From an uncultured Acidobacteriota bacterium (lineage in GTDB: Bacteria; Acidobacteriota; Terriglobia; Terriglobales; Acidobacteriaceae): a stretch of DNA of 64,000 nt. The notes under the pieces were generated by a model. The model made no database searches. It was not told the origin of the DNA and was given only the letters and a program-made list of their open reading frames with translations. Shown here piece after piece: positions 15,158 through 23,848 of the stretch. The DNA lies in the NCBI GenBank assembly GCA_903832295.1, contig CAILAZ010000309.1:1-64000 (forward strand), written 5' to 3'. Numbering within the stretch: position 1 is the stretch's first letter; the number at the start of each line of letters is the position of its first letter. The translations under genes and the position numbers were made by a program.

Positions 15158-16234
15158 TCAGCGGTGCGCAACCTCCTCCACGTGCAGGCTGGAGATATCC
15201 ATAAGCCACAAGGTCAGGGTGTGCGGTCCGGCAACGGCGTCGCGACTGGAGGAGAAGAGCAACCAGTGACCATCCGGCGAAATTACTGGAAACCCATTGA
15301 AGGCCTTGCGGTAGGTGAGCTGTACCTGCTCAGAGCTGTTCAGGTCGCCGAGGAATATCTGGTAGCTGCCCTGGATGGAGCGCACAAAGACATAGTGGTG
15401 TCCGTCGGGCGCGGGATAAGGCGACCAGTTCATGCCATCGTCGTTGGTGATCTTCTTTAGATCGCTGCCATCGTCGTTGATGGTAAACAAAGACATCGGC
15501 AGTGGATGCTTATTGGCCTTCTGGTCTTCGACCTTCCATGCGCGGAAGAGAATCTTGCTGCTGTGGGGAAAGTAGAAGGCGCCGCCCGGCTCCCAGCCAT
15601 CGAGGTGCGTGACCTGGGTAACCTGGCTGCCATCGGGTTTGGCGCGCCAGAGGTCCAGTTTTCCCTCTGCCTGATGGCCGTAGAGGATGTACTTTCCGTC
15701 AGGGCGCACGGAGACCTCGGCGTCATAGTTGGTGTTGCTGGTCAACCTGCGAACATCGCTGCCATCGAGATTCGAGGTGTAGATCTCGGCGCCCTGAGGA
15801 TAGTTGTTGGGGTCAGAGTAATTTCCCTTGGGAAGCTCCGGATGGTCGCGCGTCGAGGTCCAGATGATGCGCTTGCCGTCGGGAAAATAGTAGGAGCAGG
15901 CGTCCTCACCGCGGTCGTTTATGCGGCGAATATTGCTGCCATCGAGATTCAAGGTATAGACGTGATAGCTCTCATCACCCTGGCGCTTGGCGTTTCCGAT
16001 GATGCTCCGGCCATCGGGGGAGAAGTAGAACTCCGCCGCCGGACCGATGTTGGGAATAAAGTGCACGGGGAGTTCCTGCGGGGCGCTCTCCGCGGGGGAT
16101 GGGGCAGAGGCCGGGGCCGTTGCCTGAGCCCGGCCGCCCGTGGAGAGGCTGGCGGCAAGCATCGCCGCCAGCACCACGCGTGACATCCAGTACTGCGTGC
16201 TATTCCGCACTTTCGTAGCCTCTGTTGTGTTCAT
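15158..16234 (-). CDS. Exported PD40/TolB-like beta-propeller protein
   Basis: A 358-residue protein with an N-terminal signal region (VVLAAMLAASLSTGGRAQA) and then at least five PD40/WD40-like blades, each with a SPDGR or RPDGKYI motif (for example YFSPDGRSIIG, YYFPDGKRIIW, SVRPDGKYILYG, APDGHHYVFV and ISPDGHWLLFSS). Such propellers bind proteins or ligands in the periplasm; there is no catalytic motif. It starts 24 bp after the TonB-dependent receptor gene on the same strand, so it is likely co-expressed with, and may assist, that receptor. Both would sit under the leader-peptide attenuator at 19.7 kb. Confidence 0.8.
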   Translation of the reverse strand: MNTTEATKVRNSTQYWMSRVVLAAMLAASLSTGGRAQATAPASAPSPAESAPQELPVHFIPNIGPAAEFYFSPDGRSIIGNAKRQGDESYHVYTLNLDGSNIRRINDRGEDACSYYFPDGKRIIWTSTRDHPELPKGNYSDPNNYPQGAEIYTSNLDGSDVRRLTSNTNYDAEVSVRPDGKYILYGHQAEGKLDLWRAKPDGSQVTQVTHLDGWEPGGAFYFPHSSKILFRAWKVEDQKANKHPLPMSLFTINDDGSDLKKITNDDGMNWSPYPAPDGHHYVFVRSIQGSYQIFLGDLNSSEQVQLTYRKAFNGFPVISPDGHWLLFSSSRDAVAGPHTLTLWLMDISSLHVEEVAHR

Positions 16235-16258: not shown

Positions 16259-19200
16259 CTAGAAGGTAATTTTGAGCGACAGTTGTGCGTTGAAGGGCTC
16301 GCCCGGACCGATGCCGGGGAGGCCAAACTGGGAGCCGTTAGTGTAGCCGATGGGAAAGCCCATGCTGAAGCCGGGAACGGCGATGATGCCGTTGGCTCCG
16401 GTGAACAGAGGGGCTCCGAGGTTGACGCGGTTGAAGATGTTGAACAGGTCCGCCCGAAGTTGGGCATGGACGCGTTCTGAGATTGCTGTTTCCTTGGAGA
16501 GATTCAAATCAACGTCGGCGAAACCAGGTCCGAAGAGCTGGTTGCGGCGCGTGGTTCCCCATGAGCCAAATGAGCTGGTGAAGGAATTGGCGTTGAACCA
16601 GTAAACCGGCTTGTGATTGACAACCGAGTGGGAGATGCCAGCGTAGGGATTGGCGATCTGGGTTGCACGGTCGGTGATTTCGGCGGTGCCACTGGGATCG
16701 ACGTAGTTGTTGACGGTGAAGGGCTGCCCGGATCGGATGCTGAGCAGGCTGCTGACCCGCCAGCCTTTGCTGAGCCGTCCCAGAGCAGGCAAGAACGCGG
16801 GCACGTCATAGGAGAGGAAAGCGGTGAAGTTGTTCCGCTGATCGAAGTCGCTGTTGCCGTACTCGCCGCGCCGGTTCGTGCTGTCCTGGGGAAGAAGCAA
16901 GAAGCTGCCGTAGTCCAGCGTATGCGCCCAGGTATAAGCGAACTGGGAAGTTACGCCGTGCCAGGATTGCGTTTTGAGCGTAGCCTGCAGTGAATTGTAG
17001 TTGGAGGTGCCGCCACTGGAGAGTTCGTTGATGAAGGTGTAGTTGGGATATTTCGAATAGAACGGGCGAGTGGTGTTGTAATCGGCCGCGTAATACTCGC
17101 TGCCCAGCGCCGCCTGGTTGATGTCATTGATCAACAGCAGATGCCGTCCCAGGCTGCCTACGTAGGCAATCTCGGCGAGGGCGGCTTTGCCCAGTCCATG
17201 CTGGATACCCAGCCGGTAGTTGAGCAGGCGGGGCGTGGTGAGGTGCTGGCTGACGGCGAAGAGGCTGATTGCGCTGTTCGGGGTGGCGCTGGCGAAGACA
17301 TTCGAGCCATTCGTGGGAAGCGCCGAGGTGCCACCGTTGTTGTAAAGATTGAGGGTCTGCACCTGGTTGTTTCCCACCGGATTATCCTGTGCGCCGCTGG
17401 CTCCGCCGTTGGCGAGGTTGCCGTCAGCGAGGAACGACGCGGCACTGACGGTATCAAAGGCGAGACCGATCGAGCCCCGGATGGCAGTGTTGGAGTCATG
17501 GAAGGGGCGGAGAGCAAAACCAAAATTCGGGGCGAAGTTCGTCTTTACTCCCGGGTAAAGCGTCCTGATGTCTTTTCCGGCGACCAGCAGGCCGCGCTGC
17601 GGATCAAAGGTTGTGAGATTCTGGTTTCCATTCTGCACCGGCTGATTGTAGCCATAGCGCAAGCCGAAAGTGAGACTCAACCGGCGCGTCGCCTGAAAGC
17701 GATCCTGCCCGAAGAAAGAGAAACCATTGCTGCTAAGCCAACGGGTAGGATCTCCGTGAACGAGCTTGGCGTTGCTGTAATATCCGGCAAGAAAGTCGGC
17801 GAGGGATTGCAGGTAGGGGTCGGTGACGGTTGAGAGCTGCGGATTGGTCCACGGACCCTGGTCTCCATAGAAGTTGAACACGCCGCGCTGATTGTTGTGA
17901 TAGAACGCATGGATCTTGTTGTATCGGAACTCACCGCCGAAGCGCAGTTCGTGGCGGCCGACGCCGTAGGTCACGGTGTCCGTCAGGTGCCAGCTCAGGT
18001 CGCGGCGGCCAGAATAGGGATTGATGCCGATGGGATCAAAGAGCGAGTTGCCGGTGCCGTCATTACCGATATTGATGCGAGGCGCGCCGGCGAGTTGCGG
18101 ATCGGTGACGCCGGTATTGAGTCCCAGTGCCGCCGGACTGTAACTGGTGTTGGCGTCGGCCTCGGTCTGCTGGAAGAAGTTAATACCCAGCAGGAGTTGA
18201 TTGGCGGCCCGGTCCGAGAGTGTGGAGTTCTGTACCAGCGCCCAGTTCTGCACCCGCATGGGCGAGGACTCGAAATAGGGTGAGAGGAAGGAAGAAGTGG
18301 GCGCCGTCTGGTGGCCCTGCGCGATGAAAGCACGGAGGCTAAGCCGCTCGCGCTCGCTCAATGTGTGCTCAATCCTGACGATTGCGTTGTTGCTGTAGCC
18401 GGTCTCCGTGCCTGGGTTGGAGTAGTTGCCCGGGCTTGCCGGGCCGTTGAGCGCGGAGGACGGCCAGAGGTTGGCGAGCAGCTTGGCCGATACCGGGTTC
18501 TGGACTACCGGGGCGTAGGTGCCGTACTTGCCTCCCGGATTGTTGAGCACATCGAGAGCGGCGGCCTGGTAGCCCTTGGGACCAGCGGAGGGTTCGGTAA
18601 CCACCACCGGATTCGTGAGATTGAAATTCTGGCGCTCATAGCTGGCGAAGTAGAAAGTACGGTTCTTGAAGATAGGTCCGCCAATGGTGAAGCCGAGTTG
18701 CTGGTTGCGCAGCTTGTTCTTGTGGACGATGTAATTGCCGCTGGCATCCGCGGCGCCGAATACCGGGTCAGCGGCCAGTGCCTCATGCCGCAAGTAGTAG
18801 TAGGCCGAGCCGTGCAGCTGGTTGGTGCCCGACTTCAAGGCAAGATTCACGGTGGGGCCGGGGTTGCGGCTGGTCTCGGCGCCGCCCTGGGTGAGAATTG
18901 AGAACTCTTCAACGGAATCCAGCGGCAGCAGCACACCGGGAATTCCATAGACGCCGCCCTGGTTGACCGCCGAAGTGTTGATCCACAGGTCGTTGTTATC
19001 GGCACCCTCAATCTGCCAGTTTGTCTGCGAGGCCTGCGAACCATTGATGGCGCTCATGAAGCCGACTCCATAGCCGGAGTAACCGGGAGTAAGCGTGAGC
19101 AACTGGGTGAAGTCGCGGCCGTTGAGAGGCACGTTCTGTACCATCTGGGGCAGCAACACATCCACATCAGAGGACGCCGAGGTGTCCACTGCGAGGGCCG

Positions 19201-19591
19201 CCGCCGTGACGTTTACCTTCTCAGCCACGGCATGCACCGTGAGCTTGAGCGCGAGGGGGTAAGCGCTGCCCGCGCTGACTTCGATGCGCTGAACCGTCAG
19301 CGGATCAAAACCAGCATGGGACACGGTAAGCGCGTAGCTGCCCAGCGGCAGATCCAACAGGGAGAACTCGCCGGCAGTGGTGGTCTGGGTGGAGTAGCTC
19401 TGCCCGGTGGATGCACTGACAGCTTTGACCTCGGTGCCGCTCAACAACGCTCCGGAGGCGTCCTCCACGTGGCCACGAATGCCTCCGCGGAATGTCTGGG
19501 CCTCAACAGGGAGGCTGGCAAATAGAAGGAAGGTGGCGGCCAAGAAAACGCTCAGGCCCAACGACAAGGACTTCAGGGTACGGGAATACAT
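16259..19591 (-). CDS. Oar-like TonB-dependent outer-membrane receptor
   Basis: I start at the Met of MYSRTLKSLSLGLSVFL, preceded by GAGAGAAAAG, which gives a clean signal peptide ending PVEAQ and 1110 residues. A carboxypeptidase-regulatory-like beta domain (GGIRGHVEDASGALLSG, about 30-115) precedes the plug (NVPLNGRDFTQLL near 150) and a large beta barrel that ends in LSLKITF, a typical outer-membrane C-terminal Phe. Acidobacteria have many such receptors, thought to import glycans, peptides or chelated metals. The ligand here is unknown. Its position downstream of a polycysteine leader and terminator suggests that sulfur or metal status controls it. Confidence 0.9.
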   Translation of the reverse strand: MYSRTLKSLSLGLSVFLAATFLLFASLPVEAQTFRGGIRGHVEDASGALLSGTEVKAVSASTGQSYSTQTTTAGEFSLLDLPLGSYALTVSHAGFDPLTVQRIEVSAGSAYPLALKLTVHAVAEKVNVTAAALAVDTSASSDVDVLLPQMVQNVPLNGRDFTQLLTLTPGYSGYGVGFMSAINGSQASQTNWQIEGADNNDLWINTSAVNQGGVYGIPGVLLPLDSVEEFSILTQGGAETSRNPGPTVNLALKSGTNQLHGSAYYYLRHEALAADPVFGAADASGNYIVHKNKLRNQQLGFTIGGPIFKNRTFYFASYERQNFNLTNPVVVTEPSAGPKGYQAAALDVLNNPGGKYGTYAPVVQNPVSAKLLANLWPSSALNGPASPGNYSNPGTETGYSNNAIVRIEHTLSERERLSLRAFIAQGHQTAPTSSFLSPYFESSPMRVQNWALVQNSTLSDRAANQLLLGINFFQQTEADANTSYSPAALGLNTGVTDPQLAGAPRINIGNDGTGNSLFDPIGINPYSGRRDLSWHLTDTVTYGVGRHELRFGGEFRYNKIHAFYHNNQRGVFNFYGDQGPWTNPQLSTVTDPYLQSLADFLAGYYSNAKLVHGDPTRWLSSNGFSFFGQDRFQATRRLSLTFGLRYGYNQPVQNGNQNLTTFDPQRGLLVAGKDIRTLYPGVKTNFAPNFGFALRPFHDSNTAIRGSIGLAFDTVSAASFLADGNLANGGASGAQDNPVGNNQVQTLNLYNNGGTSALPTNGSNVFASATPNSAISLFAVSQHLTTPRLLNYRLGIQHGLGKAALAEIAYVGSLGRHLLLINDINQAALGSEYYAADYNTTRPFYSKYPNYTFINELSSGGTSNYNSLQATLKTQSWHGVTSQFAYTWAHTLDYGSFLLLPQDSTNRRGEYGNSDFDQRNNFTAFLSYDVPAFLPALGRLSKGWRVSSLLSIRSGQPFTVNNYVDPSGTAEITDRATQIANPYAGISHSVVNHKPVYWFNANSFTSSFGSWGTTRRNQLFGPGFADVDLNLSKETAISERVHAQLRADLFNIFNRVNLGAPLFTGANGIIAVPGFSMGFPIGYTNGSQFGLPGIGPGEPFNAQLSLKITF

Positions 19592-19684: not shown

Positions 19685-19722
19685 AAAAAGCAGAAGGCCC
19701 ACGATGGGTGCTCGTGGGCCTT
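19685..19722 (-). terminator. Attenuator terminator upstream of the TonB receptor
   Basis: On the minus strand AAGGCCCACGA pairs with TCGTGGGCCTT (11 bp, 7-base loop), followed by CTGC and TTTTT. It lies between the Cys leader ORF and the receptor gene. Bases of the loop and left arm (19705..19716) can instead pair with TGGGTGCGTG inside the leader ORF (19790..19781), about 10 bp with a 2-base bulge. That would prevent the terminator from forming. Confidence 0.75.
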
Positions 19723-19746
19723 GCTGAACTCGGAGATGGAATTACT

Positions 19747-19839
19747 CTATGGAGTAACTCGGACTCTGGCGGCAAGCGCGCACGCACCCAGGGTGGGCTG
19801 CATACAACAACAGATCGCGGCTTGCGAAATCGCCTTCAT
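19747..19839 (-). CDS. Polycysteine leader peptide for the TonB receptor operon
   Basis: A 30-codon ORF, too short for the ORF track, with the core AICCCMQ encoded by three consecutive TGT codons (positions 10-12) and a further Cys at 20. The ATG lies 0-2 bases from the transcription start predicted from the TTGACA/TACTCT promoter, so it would be essentially leaderless. The stop codon lies in a small hairpin (TTACTC/GAGTAA). The last Cys of the triplet ends 14 bases before the antiterminator segment, the right distance for a ribosome stalled on Cys codons to leave that segment free. The role is inferred by analogy with amino-acid attenuators. Confidence 0.72.
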   Translation of the reverse strand: MKAISQAAICCCMQPTLGACALAARVRVTP

Positions 19840-19847
19840 GTAGAGCG

Positions 19848-19877
19848 AGAGTAACTGGAAAGCAAAATTTCTGTCAA
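19848..19877 (-). promoter_or_regulatory. Promoter of the TonB leader transcript
   Basis: A perfect -35 TTGACA (19877..19872), an 18-bp spacer and -10 TACTCT (19853..19848) read leftward. Transcription would start about 19841, at or next to the leader ATG. It is back to back with the tRNA-Cys promoter. Confidence 0.7.
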
Positions 19878-19907: not shown

Positions 19908-19936
19908 TTGTGCAGCGCTGGAAAGTTCGCTAGAGT
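19908..19936 (+). promoter_or_regulatory. Promoter of the tRNA-Cys leader transcript
   Basis: TTGTGC (19908..19913), a 17-bp spacer and TAGAGT (19931..19936). The expected start, seven bases on, is 19943, the A of the leader ATG, so the message is predicted to be leaderless. Its -35 is about 30 bp from the divergent TonB promoter. Confidence 0.65.
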
Positions 19937-19942
19937 GAGTGC

Positions 19943-20023
19943 ATGATTTTCTCCTCCACCATGGCCTGTTGTTGCGCGAGCATGTGTATGTGCATGCGCG
20001 ACGGCTCTGGCATGGGGAGATAA
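19943..20023 (+). CDS. Cys/Met-rich leader peptide upstream of tRNA-Cys
   Basis: A 26-codon ORF missing from the ORF track. It contains a Cys triplet (MACCCAS) and then an alternating MCMCMR block, five Cys in all, followed by DGSGMGR and a TAA. No ribosome site is needed if the predicted leaderless start is right. The codons after the last Cys (20004..20016) are complementary to the left arm of the following terminator: nine contiguous pairs (GCTCTGGCA with TGCCAGAGC), then four more after one bulge. This is the arrangement expected of a classical attenuator whose ribosome stalls when charged Cys-tRNA is scarce. Confidence 0.75.
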   Translation: MIFSSTMACCCASMCMCMRDGSGMGR

Positions 20024-20052: not shown

Positions 20053-20086
20053 AACCCACTGCCAGAGCGCAGTGGGTTTTTGTTTT
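20053..20086 (+). terminator. Attenuator terminator directly before tRNA-Cys
   Basis: AACCCACTGC-(CAGAGC)-GCAGTGGGTT is a perfect 10-bp stem followed by TTTTGTTTT, a strong intrinsic terminator. It ends 2 bases before the tRNA. The competing helix 20004..20016 with 20055..20068 would remove its left arm. Confidence 0.88.
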
Positions 20087-20088
20087 AG

Positions 20089-20164
20089 GCACGGGTGGCG
20101 AAGCGGCTAACGCGGCGGACTGCAAATCCGTTATTCATGGGTTCAAATCCCATCCCGTGCTCCA
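20089..20164 (+). tRNA. tRNA-Cys (anticodon GCA)
   Basis: The cloverleaf is complete: acceptor stem GCACGGG/CCCGTGC, D arm with GCG/CGC, anticodon stem GCGGA/TCCGT with loop CTGCAAA (anticodon GCA at 20122..20124), T arm ATGGG-TTCAAAT-CCCAT, discriminator T and an encoded CCA. It is 76 nt long. The discriminator U and GCA anticodon are the identity elements of tRNA-Cys. It is the first stable product downstream of a Cys-codon leader and terminator, which would make tRNA-Cys synthesis responsive to Cys-tRNA charging. Confidence 0.96.
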
Positions 20165-20186: not shown

Positions 20187-20291
20187 ATGACGACCACGCC
20201 CAATTCGACGATGACCGGCACGGCCACCATGGCCATGTGCATGTGTATGCGTCACGGTATCCCTGGCGTGGGCGGAGAATCCGGAGAGTAA
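20187..20291 (+). CDS. Second Met/Cys-rich leader peptide
   Basis: A 34-codon ORF starting 22 bases after tRNA-Cys, with AAGGA nine bases before its ATG. It opens with Thr-rich codons and then reads MAMCMCMRHG, nearly the same core as the leader before the tRNA. Codons 27-29 (GGC GTG GGC, 20265..20273) are perfectly complementary over nine bases to the left arm of the next terminator (20322..20330). The last Cys codon ends 18 bases before that segment. The repeated core and layout argue for duplication of a regulatory module. Confidence 0.72.
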   Translation: MTTTPNSTMTGTATMAMCMCMRHGIPGVGGESGE

Positions 20292-20318
20292 AGCAGCAAC
20301 ATCCGGTTCGATTTTCCG

Positions 20319-20354
20319 AAGGCCCACGCCGAACAAGCGTGGGCCTTCCCTTTT
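20319..20354 (+). terminator. Attenuator terminator before the zinc-ribbon gene
   Basis: AAGGCCCACGC-(CGAACAA)-GCGTGGGCCTT is an 11-bp perfect stem, then CCC and TTTT. Nine bases of the left arm can instead pair with the end of the second leader ORF. The stem is nearly the same sequence as the one before the TonB receptor. Confidence 0.82.
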
Positions 20355-20377: not shown

Positions 20378-20710
20378 ATGAAACAGCAAGCGCATTCGCA
20401 ACCGCAAACCAAAACCCTGACGCACATCTACGTCCGCGACGCACAGCAGGGCTTTGTGCGCCCCTGCTGGGCCAGCGGCCCGGAGCTGTATTGCGGCATG
20501 TGCATGCGGGGTGTGGTGCGGGCGGAGCTCGGTGCGACCTGCCCGGTGTGCAGCAGCACGGTGGAGCGCATTCTGGAAGTTACCGAAGGGGGTACGCCGA
20601 AGTTCACACGCCAACGACGTGAGTGTTCCATCCGCGTGGGTGCGGCGCGGCAGGAGGAACGACAGGCTGTGCTGTTGAACTTCAGGGCTTCGCAGCGGGG
20701 GCTTGCATAA
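20378..20710 (+). CDS. Small CxxC zinc-ribbon-like protein
   Basis: I take the Met at 20378, which has AGGAG eight bases upstream, instead of the longer track ORF that reads through the attenuator. The 110-residue protein is not recognised. It has two CxxC pairs 16 residues apart (YCGMCMRG and TCPVCSS), the spacing of a treble-clef or ribbon zinc site, plus single Cys residues in RPCWAS and RECSI. The C-terminal third is basic. It probably binds a metal and may bind nucleic acid. The upstream Met/Cys leader and the Csp-like neighbour suggest a role in metal or thiol balance, but no function is shown. Confidence 0.65.
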   Translation: MKQQAHSQPQTKTLTHIYVRDAQQGFVRPCWASGPELYCGMCMRGVVRAELGATCPVCSSTVERILEVTEGGTPKFTRQRRECSIRVGAARQEERQAVLLNFRASQRGLA

Positions 20711-21314: not shown

Positions 21315-22475
21315 TTATTTGGCGGCGAACGAGAGCGCGTGGCTGGCGGCGGCGGTGAGCGCCTGATCGAGGTCGGCAATGAGGTCTCCGCTGTCTTCAA
21401 TGCCTACGGAGATACGCACAAGTTCCGGCGGCAGTACGCGCGTGGCGGCGATCTCCGGGGGCACGCTGGCGTGCGACATGGCGGCCGGGAGGCTGATGGT
21501 TGAGTGAACGCTTCCAAAGCTGACGCAGATCTGGAACATCTTTGCATTCTCGGCAATTGCCTTTGCGGCCTCCGTGGAGTGCGCCGTAAAGCTCAATACC
21601 GATCCCGCCCCGCTGGCCTGGCTGCGCTGCAACGGGGAGTGGGTGAGCCCGGGATAGAAGACATGGCCGACTCGCGCATCGGCGGCGAGGAATTCCGCAA
21701 TCGCCTGGGCGTTGCGCTGCTGCGCATCCAGGCGGAGCTTCAGGGTCTTGAGTCCGCGTTGCAATAGAAAGCAGTCAAAAGGCGCCAGCGCATTGCCCTC
21801 GGCGTTTTGCAGGAAGGCGATGTCGCCGCCAAGTTTCTCATCCCGAACGACCACCATGCCGCCGGTGACATCGGCATGCCCGCAGAGGAATTTTGTCGCG
21901 GAGTGGAGGACGACGTCGGCACCCAACTCCAAGGGACGCTGGAGGTAAGGCGACATGAGGGAGTTATCCACCACAAGCAGCGCACCATTGGCATGCGCCA
22001 GCGCAGCGAGGGCGCGGAGGTCCAGTACGCGCAGCAGTGGGTTGGTGGGGGACTCGGCATAGATGATGCGGGTGCGCGGCGTGATCTTCGCCGCAAAAGT
22101 CTCGAGGTCTCCGGCATCGGCGTAATGTGCGGTAATTCCGCTGCGCTCGAGCACGCGGGTAAAGAGACGGCAGGTGCCGCCATAGAGATCGCTGTCTGCG
22201 AGAATTTCATCCCCGGCGCGCAGGGTGCGCGCCACGGCAGTAATGGCCGCCATGCCGCTGGCGAAGGCAAAGCCACGCTGGCCGCCTTCCAGCTTTGCCA
22301 CGAGTTCCTCAAGAACCTTGCGGGTGGGATTACCACTCCGCGAGTAATCGAAGTCGCCGAAGCTATCGGCGTGCTCCTGCTCAAAGGTCGCCGTCTGGTA
22401 GATGGGCGTGGCCGTGGGACGGTAGGGGTCGCCGGGGGCGGCCTGATGCTGCACGAGCTGACTAGCGAACTTCAC
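21315..22475 (-). CDS. Cys/Met-metabolism PLP enzyme (cystathionine lyase/synthase type)
   Basis: I use the GTG at 22475 with a perfect AGGAGG upstream, which gives 386 residues. It overlaps the preceding gene by 14 bases, so the two are translationally coupled. Family marks: YSRSGNPTRKVLE, the glycine-serine turn FASGMAAITAV, DNSLMSPYLQ, PLP lysine in HSATKFLCGHADVTGG, and FGSVHSTISLPAAMSHAS near the end. This places it in the fold-type I trans-sulfuration family that includes MetB, MetC and the cystathionine gamma-lyases. The sequence alone does not separate synthesis from lysis. With its neighbour it could make a homoserine-to-homocysteine or Met-to-Cys pair. Confidence 0.85.
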   Translation of the reverse strand: MKFASQLVQHQAAPGDPYRPTATPIYQTATFEQEHADSFGDFDYSRSGNPTRKVLEELVAKLEGGQRGFAFASGMAAITAVARTLRAGDEILADSDLYGGTCRLFTRVLERSGITAHYADAGDLETFAAKITPRTRIIYAESPTNPLLRVLDLRALAALAHANGALLVVDNSLMSPYLQRPLELGADVVLHSATKFLCGHADVTGGMVVVRDEKLGGDIAFLQNAEGNALAPFDCFLLQRGLKTLKLRLDAQQRNAQAIAEFLAADARVGHVFYPGLTHSPLQRSQASGAGSVLSFTAHSTEAAKAIAENAKMFQICVSFGSVHSTISLPAAMSHASVPPEIAATRVLPPELVRISVGIEDSGDLIADLDQALTAAASHALSFAAK

Positions 22476-23673
22476 TGGCGGCCTCCTGAGCGCGTTGGGC
22501 GCAAGACAGAGCGCAACCCGCGGCGGCAAAGGCCTGCGCGAGATCGGCGATGATGTCGGCGGGCGACTCCAGCCCGACGGAAATGCGGATGAGTCCCTCG
22601 GAAATTCCGAGAGCCGCGCGCGTCTCCGCACCGAGGTCGGCGTGAGTGGTGGAGGCCGGATGGGTGATCAATGTCTCCAGCCCTCCCAGGCTTTCGGCGC
22701 GCGAGCAGAGCTGGACCGAGTTGAGCACAGCGATGGCGGTCTCAAAGGGAGCGTCGAGTTCAAAGCTCAACATGCCACCGGCGGCGCGCTGCTGTCGCAA
22801 CGCAAGCTCGTGCTGGGGAAAGCTCCGCAGGCCCGGGTAGTAGACGCGGGCAACCGACGGTTGCGACTCGAGCCACTCGGCGATCTGCTGCGCGTTCTCG
22901 CAGTGGAGGCGCAGCCTGGCAGGGAGCGTCTTGATGCCCTGAAGGGTGAGCCACGCCTCGAAGGGCGCCTGTATGGAGCCGAGCGTCTTGCGAATCAAAC
23001 GGAAGCGCTCCGCAAGCTCCGGGTTTTGCGTAGCCAGCGATCCGCCGACGGTGGCGTTATGTCCGTCCATGTACTTGGTAGTGGAGAGGACGCTGATATC
23101 CGCACCCAGTTCCAACGGGCGCTGGAGCGCGGGAGTCAGGAAGGTGTTATCCACGGCGAGCAAGAGTCCGTGACGGCGCGTAATTTCAGCAACCGCGGCA
23201 ATGTCTGTGAGGGTGAGGATGGGATTGGCCGGAGACTCGATGAAGACGATGCGCGTCTGCGGGGTGATTGCCGCTTGCACGTTCGCGGCCTCGGAGGTGT
23301 CCACAAAACTGGCGGTGACGCCGAAGGGCTCAAGGATTTCGCGGAAGAGACGGATGGTGCCGCCGTAGAGCACCTTGGAGAGGATGGCGTGGTCGCCGGC
23401 CTTGAGGAGGGAGAAGAACAGCGTGCTCTCTGCTGCCAGACCGGTGCGGAAACACACTGCCGGCGGCGTACCCTCGAGTGCGCCGATGGCCCGCTCGAGC
23501 GCATCTACCGTGGGGTTGGAGACGCGCGAGTAGCTGAAACCCTTATCTACACCGACGGCATCGTGAACGAAGGTGCCCGTCTGGTAGAGCGGGAAGAGCA
23601 GCGAACTGGCGTGCGAATCCAGCGAGCGTCCGCCGTGAATAGCAAGGGTGGCAATGTCGTGCGGGGAAGCCAT
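22462..23673 (-). CDS. Cys/Met-metabolism PLP enzyme (cystathionine gamma-synthase-like)
   Basis: A 403-residue member of the same family as its downstream neighbour, from which it differs substantially. It has LYQTGTFVHDAVG, YSRVSNPTVDALE, DNTFLTPALQ, PLP lysine in STTKYMDGHNATVGGS, and LGGLETLITHPASTTHA near the C-terminus. MetB-like enzymes condense an activated homoserine with Cys to form cystathionine; relatives use sulfide or cleave cystathionine. It is the first gene of the operon and sits behind a Met-rich leader and attenuator, in keeping with end-product control of Met or Cys synthesis. Confidence 0.86.
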   Translation of the reverse strand: MASPHDIATLAIHGGRSLDSHASSLLFPLYQTGTFVHDAVGVDKGFSYSRVSNPTVDALERAIGALEGTPPAVCFRTGLAAESTLFFSLLKAGDHAILSKVLYGGTIRLFREILEPFGVTASFVDTSEAANVQAAITPQTRIVFIESPANPILTLTDIAAVAEITRRHGLLLAVDNTFLTPALQRPLELGADISVLSTTKYMDGHNATVGGSLATQNPELAERFRLIRKTLGSIQAPFEAWLTLQGIKTLPARLRLHCENAQQIAEWLESQPSVARVYYPGLRSFPQHELALRQQRAAGGMLSFELDAPFETAIAVLNSVQLCSRAESLGGLETLITHPASTTHADLGAETRAALGISEGLIRISVGLESPADIIADLAQAFAAAGCALSCAQRAQEAASEVR

Positions 23674-23707: not shown

Positions 23708-23745
23708 TAAAACAAATTTGCCGTCTTGAGAGTCCCCCAGACGGC
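23708..23745 (-). terminator. Attenuator terminator before the PLP-enzyme operon
   Basis: On the minus strand GCCGTCT pairs with AGACGGC, followed by AAATTTGTTTT. The left arm and loop (23744..23734, CCGTCTGGGGG) can instead pair over 11 bp, with one G-U, with CCCCCAGGCGG inside the leader ORF (23806..23796). Confidence 0.72.
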
Positions 23746-23770: not shown

Positions 23771-23848
23771 TCAAACACTCCGTGCTGGACGACCACCGCC
23801 TGGGGGGCACATGGCCATACGCATTCGAGAGTTGTTGAGCATCGTCAT
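23771..23848 (-). CDS. Met-rich leader peptide of the PLP-enzyme operon
   Basis: A 25-codon ORF, absent from the track, with AGGAA about seven bases before the ATG. Its first 14 residues hold five Met and end with one Cys (RMRMAMCPP). The antiterminator segment starts immediately after the Cys codon, so a ribosome stalled on Cys would cover it. A ribosome stalled on the Met codons at 9 or earlier would leave it open. The geometry therefore favours Met-tRNA sensing here, unlike the Cys triplet leaders at 19.8 and 19.9 kb. It shares the Met/Cys-rich core (MRMAMC against MCMCMR) with those leaders. Confidence 0.68.
   Translation of the reverse strand: MTMLNNSRMRMAMCPPGGGRPARSV

Follow-up and report, generated by a model that had tools for sequence, protein, structure and literature searches.

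The TonB-type receptor gene in this 64,000-nucleotide window, the whole stretch of soil-acidobacterial DNA that we analysed, is preceded by a leader element that, judged from its sequence, is very probably a ribosome-mediated transcription attenuator reading cysteine codons; the receptor would then belong to a regulon that responds to cysteine starvation. A preliminary description of this DNA had already placed an attenuator before the receptor gene and its PD40 partner. That proposal is well supported: the leader ORF, the terminator and the competing arm are all there, and every element named at the time is present, with positions exact to the base (Table 1). Clustered control codons, an intrinsic terminator and a mutually exclusive antiterminator 3′ of the codons, which together characterize leader-peptide attenuators, all occur in the element. 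Outer-membrane receptors are numerous in Acidobacteriota and their ligands mostly obscure, and a Cys-codon leader is an uncommon and testable hint at what such a receptor may import.

Table 1 Features of the receptor control region and of neighbouring elements in the window
Feature	Coordinates	Strand	Details
PD40 / TolB-like beta-propeller protein	15158..16234	-	358 aa; Pfam; directly 3′ of the receptor gene
TonB-type receptor	16259..19591	-	1110 aa from ATG at 19591; Pfam PF13620 carboxypeptidase-regulatory domain, PF25183 beta barrel
Receptor terminator stem-loop AAGGCCCACGAGCACCCATCGTGGGCCTT	19694..19722	-	intrinsic; 11 pairs; tail CTGCTTTTT; T-run end at 19685
Receptor leader ORF MKAISQAAICCCMQPTLGACALAARVRVTP	19747..19839	-	Cys leader; 30 codons, ATG to TAG; translation
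Antiterminator arm TGGGTGCGTGCGCGCTTG	19773..19790	-	within the leader, 3′ of the Cys triplet
Promoter-like site TTGACA (19877-19872) / 17-nt spacer / TTACTC (19854-19849)	19849..19877	-	consensus match only
Divergent promoter-like site TTGTGC-17-TAGAGT	19908..19936	+	6 nt 5′ of the ATG of the tRNA-Cys leader; consensus match only
tRNA-Cys leader ORF MIFSSTMACCCASMCMCMRDGSGMGR	19943..20023	+	Cys leader; translation
tRNA-Cys leader terminator AACCCACTGCCAGAGCGCAGTGGGTT	20053..20078	+	
tRNA-Cys(GCA)	20089..20164	+	ARAGORN and Rfam
Met/Cys leader ORF MTTTPNSTMTGTATMAMCMCMRHGIPGVGGESGE	20187..20291	+	homologous to the tRNA-Cys leader
Terminator of the Met/Cys leader	20318..20348	+	same AAGGCCCACG stem as at 19694-19722
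Small ORF ('zinc ribbon')	20378..20710	+	two CxxC motifs; under the Met/Cys leader
Two Cys/Met PLP-enzyme genes	21315-23673	-	metC/metB-like
Terminator GCCGTCTGGGGGACTCTCAAGACGGC of the Met-rich leader	23720..23745	-	
Met-rich leader MTMLNNSRMRMAMCPPGGGRPARSV	23771..23848	-	before the two PLP-enzyme genes

Cysteine occupies codons 10, 11 and 12 of the receptor leader, as a triplet, and codon 20. On the minus strand, the leader ATG reads ~9 nt 3′ of the -10-like TTACTC, a spacing that predicts a leaderless or almost leaderless transcript; the TTGACA-17-TTACTC site is absent from the output of a generic promoter scan. Both strands of the 64-kb window were searched for a Cys-dense short ORF combined with a stem of at least 10 pairs and a T-run, which returned exactly two matches, the receptor element and the tRNA-Cys leader. 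The same search returned no element in 20 dinucleotide-shuffled windows, and a chance origin of the receptor element was ruled out on that basis. At the gathering score, Rfam covariance models gave no riboswitch or T-box match in the window, the tRNA being the sole match, and no NCBIfam model covers the leaders.

The stem with TTTTT that had been described between the Cys-triplet leader and the receptor start folds as a strong terminator. The 51-nt terminator stretch has a minimum free energy of -24.1 kcal/mol (z = -5.34), none of 200 shuffles folds as well, and the stem starts 24 nt beyond the leader stop codon. Pairing of the leader's TGGGTGCGTG region with the terminator loop and arm, also proposed at the outset, is borne out by computation: TGGGTGCGTGCGCGCTTG pairs with AAGGCCCACGAGCACCC, the terminator 5′ arm plus loop, at -18.4 kcal/mol, compared with a shuffle mean of -13.0 (p = 0.025). 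When leader regions of elements before other genes were swapped in, none of the 16 paired as well with the receptor terminator. The arm lies 23–41 nt ahead of the leader stop, beyond the cover of a ribosome that pauses there, and termination must then hinge on timing.

In the mechanism that we propose, RNA polymerase would initiate just upstream of the leader ATG, giving a putatively leaderless transcript with a ribosome trailing behind. With ample Cys-tRNA, this ribosome would pass the Cys codons and reach the stop, the terminator would escape capture by the TGGGTGCGTG arm, and its 11-bp hairpin 24 nt farther on would end the transcript. For this to happen in fed cells, the ribosome would have to stay close behind the polymerase, or the terminator would have to fold faster. 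With scarce Cys-tRNA, the ribosome would stall at the Cys triplet and free the downstream arm, which could then pair with the terminator 5′ arm and loop and let the polymerase continue into the genes for the receptor and the PD40 protein. Such read-through under starvation would make the receptor a member of a Cys/Met-starvation regulon.

The source genome holds at least six leader–terminator elements of the same plan, which precede the receptor, tRNA-Cys, cysK, metY, the metC/metB-like pair and the zinc-ribbon ORF. Four attenuator-like elements (those of the receptor, tRNA-Cys, the zinc-ribbon ORF and the PLP-enzyme pair) fall inside ~4.2 kb; in the last, the antiterminator CCCCCAGGCGGTG pairs at -26.8 kcal/mol (p = 0.002). 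The genome-wide pattern TGTTGYTGY-N70-100-TTTTT, applied to this genome, misses the window leaders owing to their spacing. It found the cysK attenuator (L267, G000:C157, minus strand), in which the leader MICCCRMCRISACCCCGKVPSGESVIVE contains eight Cys codons and the terminator has 15 bp; the remaining matches of the pattern carry no terminator. The leader MLNATLIVTAMAMCMYMMYMQTPVGALEVSRKLR and a terminator lie upstream of metY–metX (L272, G000:C339); cysK and metX were identified by reading the translated sequence, and cysD was not found in the source genome. The L272 leader, with its terminator, is Met-dominated (MAMCMYMMYM), which suggests that Met is sensed as well as Cys.

Related genomes contain further members. 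A ATGTGYATGTGYATG search of 150 of them gave 15 hits, a few of these by chance, against 2 in a reversed-pattern control, and the matches comprise leader–terminator elements before metY, cysD and siroheme synthase, genes named from translated sequence. In a scan of named genomes, MAMCMCM leaders were found before metY in many Acidobacteriaceae MAGs. The named records with this leader type suggest that the source genome is from an Acidobacteriaceae-like family. The 19 metY leaders compared vary chiefly in the third position of the codon (745 vs 413 and 432), a bias indicating that this leader type is translated. At the sister elements of cysK, metY, cysD and tRNA-Cys, the control codons match the regulated pathway.

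One layout is common to 21 elements, six of them from the source genome: a cluster of Cys/Met codons and a stop 22–34 nt before the stem. In most of the 21, a segment located 3′ of the first Cys codon and 5′ of the terminator can pair with the terminator's 5′ arm better than shuffles do, with a combined Fisher p of 1e-14 for a set in which some elements are close relatives. Pairing is weakly better than shuffles, or short of significance, in six further elements, and no better than shuffles in four (L093, L174, L078 and L084; p 0.30–0.47).

The receptor probably imports a sulfur-containing nutrient. This ligand class is suggested by the genes that share its control plan: cysK, metY–metX, the metC/metB-like pair and tRNA-Cys in the source genome, joined in relatives by cysD, siroheme synthase and metY. 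The locus in this way points to a Cys/Met regulon for Acidobacteriota.

The same comparisons bear on other readings of the element. If the Cys-rich peptide were itself what the leader is for, perhaps in metal binding or redox chemistry, the terminator would be its 3′ end and the receptor would have its own promoter, for which the ~100 nt between terminator and receptor ATG leave room; Cys-rich small proteins do exist. Yet at orthologous positions the order and spacing of the cysteines vary while the codon cluster and the stop-to-terminator spacing are retained, and leaders of the same plan sit before Cys and Met biosynthesis genes. We consider a functional peptide very unlikely. A slightly smaller probability still attaches to a Cys leader with a Rho-dependent or translationally coupled output, in which the hairpin would be a secondary roadblock. 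Control of this kind has been proposed for actinobacterial Cys leaders, and two receptors of the family (L039 and L256) have leaderless-looking CCC leaders and no terminator, but in the receptor element itself the terminator is strong and an arm competes for it.

A metal-responsive upstream ORF is the third alternative, with the nascent Cys-rich peptide sensing copper or zinc. The leader is indeed rich in Cys, and a small CxxC ORF lies close by at 20378–20710. However, the leader contexts examined include no gene for metal transport or metal homeostasis; the genes found there belong to sulfur amino-acid metabolism or encode tRNA-Cys, and some leaders of the same plan are rich in Met rather than Cys. 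Metal sensing seems the least probable of the three, and of the sulfur- or metal-related ligand first suggested for the receptor, the sulfur half is backed by the regulon context and the metal half is not. Ribosome-mediated attenuation at cysteine codons is the reading that we retain.

The most unexpected part of the locus is the tRNA-Cys gene with a Cys leader of its own. We consider it fairly likely that the leader peptide, with its many Cys codons, controls the gene for the very tRNA that reads them, with the TonB receptor in the same divergent control region. The antiterminator GGCTCTGGCATGGGG in the tRNA-Cys leader pairs at -24.4 kcal/mol (p = 0.001). Two tRNA-Cys sequence types occur in the family: GCACSGGTGGCGAAG, the type of the window tRNA, and GGCGCGGTACCC or close to it. 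A Cys leader and terminator lie upstream of the GCACSGGTGGCGAAG type in 6 of 26 cases, from six different genera (the five other loci are L032, L174, L175, L192 and L218), and upstream of none of the 18 GGCGCGGTACCC-like genes, which adjoin tRNA-Gly in several loci. Because the leader would sense its own codon, low Cys-tRNA would directly raise tRNA-Cys supply, and the arrangement, if true, would form a compact feedback loop. The literature that we searched held no precedent for control of a tRNA gene by an own-codon leader.

Conservation on the receptor side is patchier. The receptor–PD40 pair is kept in three relatives (downstream ORFs of L091, L092 and L093). The closest receptor orthologues, L091 and L092 (61–62%), retain the PD40 gene and have no Cys leader upstream, so leader control is not fixed with the pair. 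An orthologous pair in G192, whose receptor is 55% identical, has the leader MKSNRQLATCCYDRGHSCVRTSALSRCCIF and a terminator with a stem, GGCCCACGAT/ATCGTGGGCC, that is near-identical to that of the receptor element, the GGCCCACGA stem being common to both; its computed arm–terminator pairing does not exceed that of shuffles (p = 0.44). Three receptors from another genus carry MNSVSLLVSVCSECC-type Cys leaders with terminators; in the two whose downstream 1.5 kb was inspected (L106 and L108), no PD40 gene was seen. When PD40 alone served as the orthologue marker in 60 relatives, it gave only 31–37% full-length matches, and the loci retrieved lacked a Cys leader with terminator.

Among 94 receptor upstream regions scanned, 6 pass, against 1 of 94 in antisense and 7 of 470 shuffles; two of the six have weak, chance-like hairpins. 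Short poly-Cys ORFs lacking a terminator number 14 before receptors, compared with ~5 per 94 shuffled regions and 7 in antisense, an excess of ~3x over shuffles that is suggestive only. At L039 (MPLMMFKFRGCCCSR), L256 (MDSYTTYFRPCCCPHPEKY) and L247, the receptor genes come with very short poly-Cys ORFs that lie close to a -10-like sequence and lack a terminator.

The trp, his and leu leader-peptide attenuators of enterobacteria pair a cluster of control codons with mutually exclusive antiterminator and terminator structures. The present elements share both features, but their two-structure layout appears simpler, and their range of targets extends to an outer-membrane receptor and a tRNA. Closer in codon identity is the uORFC-8-2 motif upstream of cysS in Rhodobacterales, a tandem-Cys short ORF with an intrinsic terminator for which ribosome-mediated attenuation was proposed (PMC8632094); here, too, a short ORF with tandem Cys codons precedes an intrinsic terminator. 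That motif is alphaproteobacterial, occurs at cysS only and has its two Cys codons within a stem, whereas our elements are from Acidobacteriota and have several targets, and the receptor element falls outside uORFC-8-2 in both gene and phylum.

Actinobacterial Cys leader peptides before cys operons likewise have runs of Cys codons in very short ORFs ahead of sulfur genes, but no obvious terminators (PMC1262725), in contrast to the strong intrinsic terminators and antiterminator arms seen here. The receptor ORFs of L039, L256 and L247 resemble these actinobacterial leaders in being poly-Cys and terminator-free. Mycobacterial polycysteine short ORFs, as far as they are described in papers citing Canestrari et al. 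2020, doi 10.1111/mmi.14498 (PMC13236596, PMC9094748), are leaderless, as is predicted here, and share the Cys-codon run. A survey listed almost no predicted Acidobacteria attenuator with an associated function (PMC2965389), and we found no report of Cys attenuators in Acidobacteria in the literature searched. Attenuators with Cys leaders have been described in other groups; what appears to be new is their placement before a receptor gene and before tRNA-Cys.

The receptor terminator stem had also been noted as nearly identical to that of the zinc-ribbon attenuator, which is accurate: AAGGCCCACG-N9-CGTGGGCCTT occurs at only two sites in the 4.87-Mb genome, the receptor terminator and the zinc-ribbon attenuator (20319–20347). 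In 40 relatives, these arms recur in a single stem, past the end of an unrelated gene. The stem is palindromic, and its orientation is therefore uninformative. A common origin of the two stems is plausible. The accompanying idea of a module duplication holds for the terminator stem but does not extend to the leaders, whose alignment scores 19 against a shuffle mean of 17.4 (p = 0.26). A duplication of the whole module, leader included, is therefore not supported for the TonB and zinc-ribbon elements, which outside the stem align no better than shuffles. The tRNA-Cys and zinc-ribbon leaders, with a score of 48 against a shuffle maximum of 26, are a clearly homologous pair. The zinc-ribbon ORF has no Pfam or NCBIfam match and only weak hits in 100 relatives (E above 0.003); lacking a family and clear relatives, it may be a lineage-specific or a doubtful gene.

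Two other loci, L130 (Acidobacteriaceae RYN_13) and L155 (Angelobacter RYN_9), carry a leader with a MAMCMCMCCC core and a terminator before a gene that looks ATP-grasp-like by eye. In a distant phylum, a MAMCMCMCM leader and terminator precede an OAH-sulfhydrylase gene (metY) at L119 (Ignavibacteria, DDUR01000076.1).
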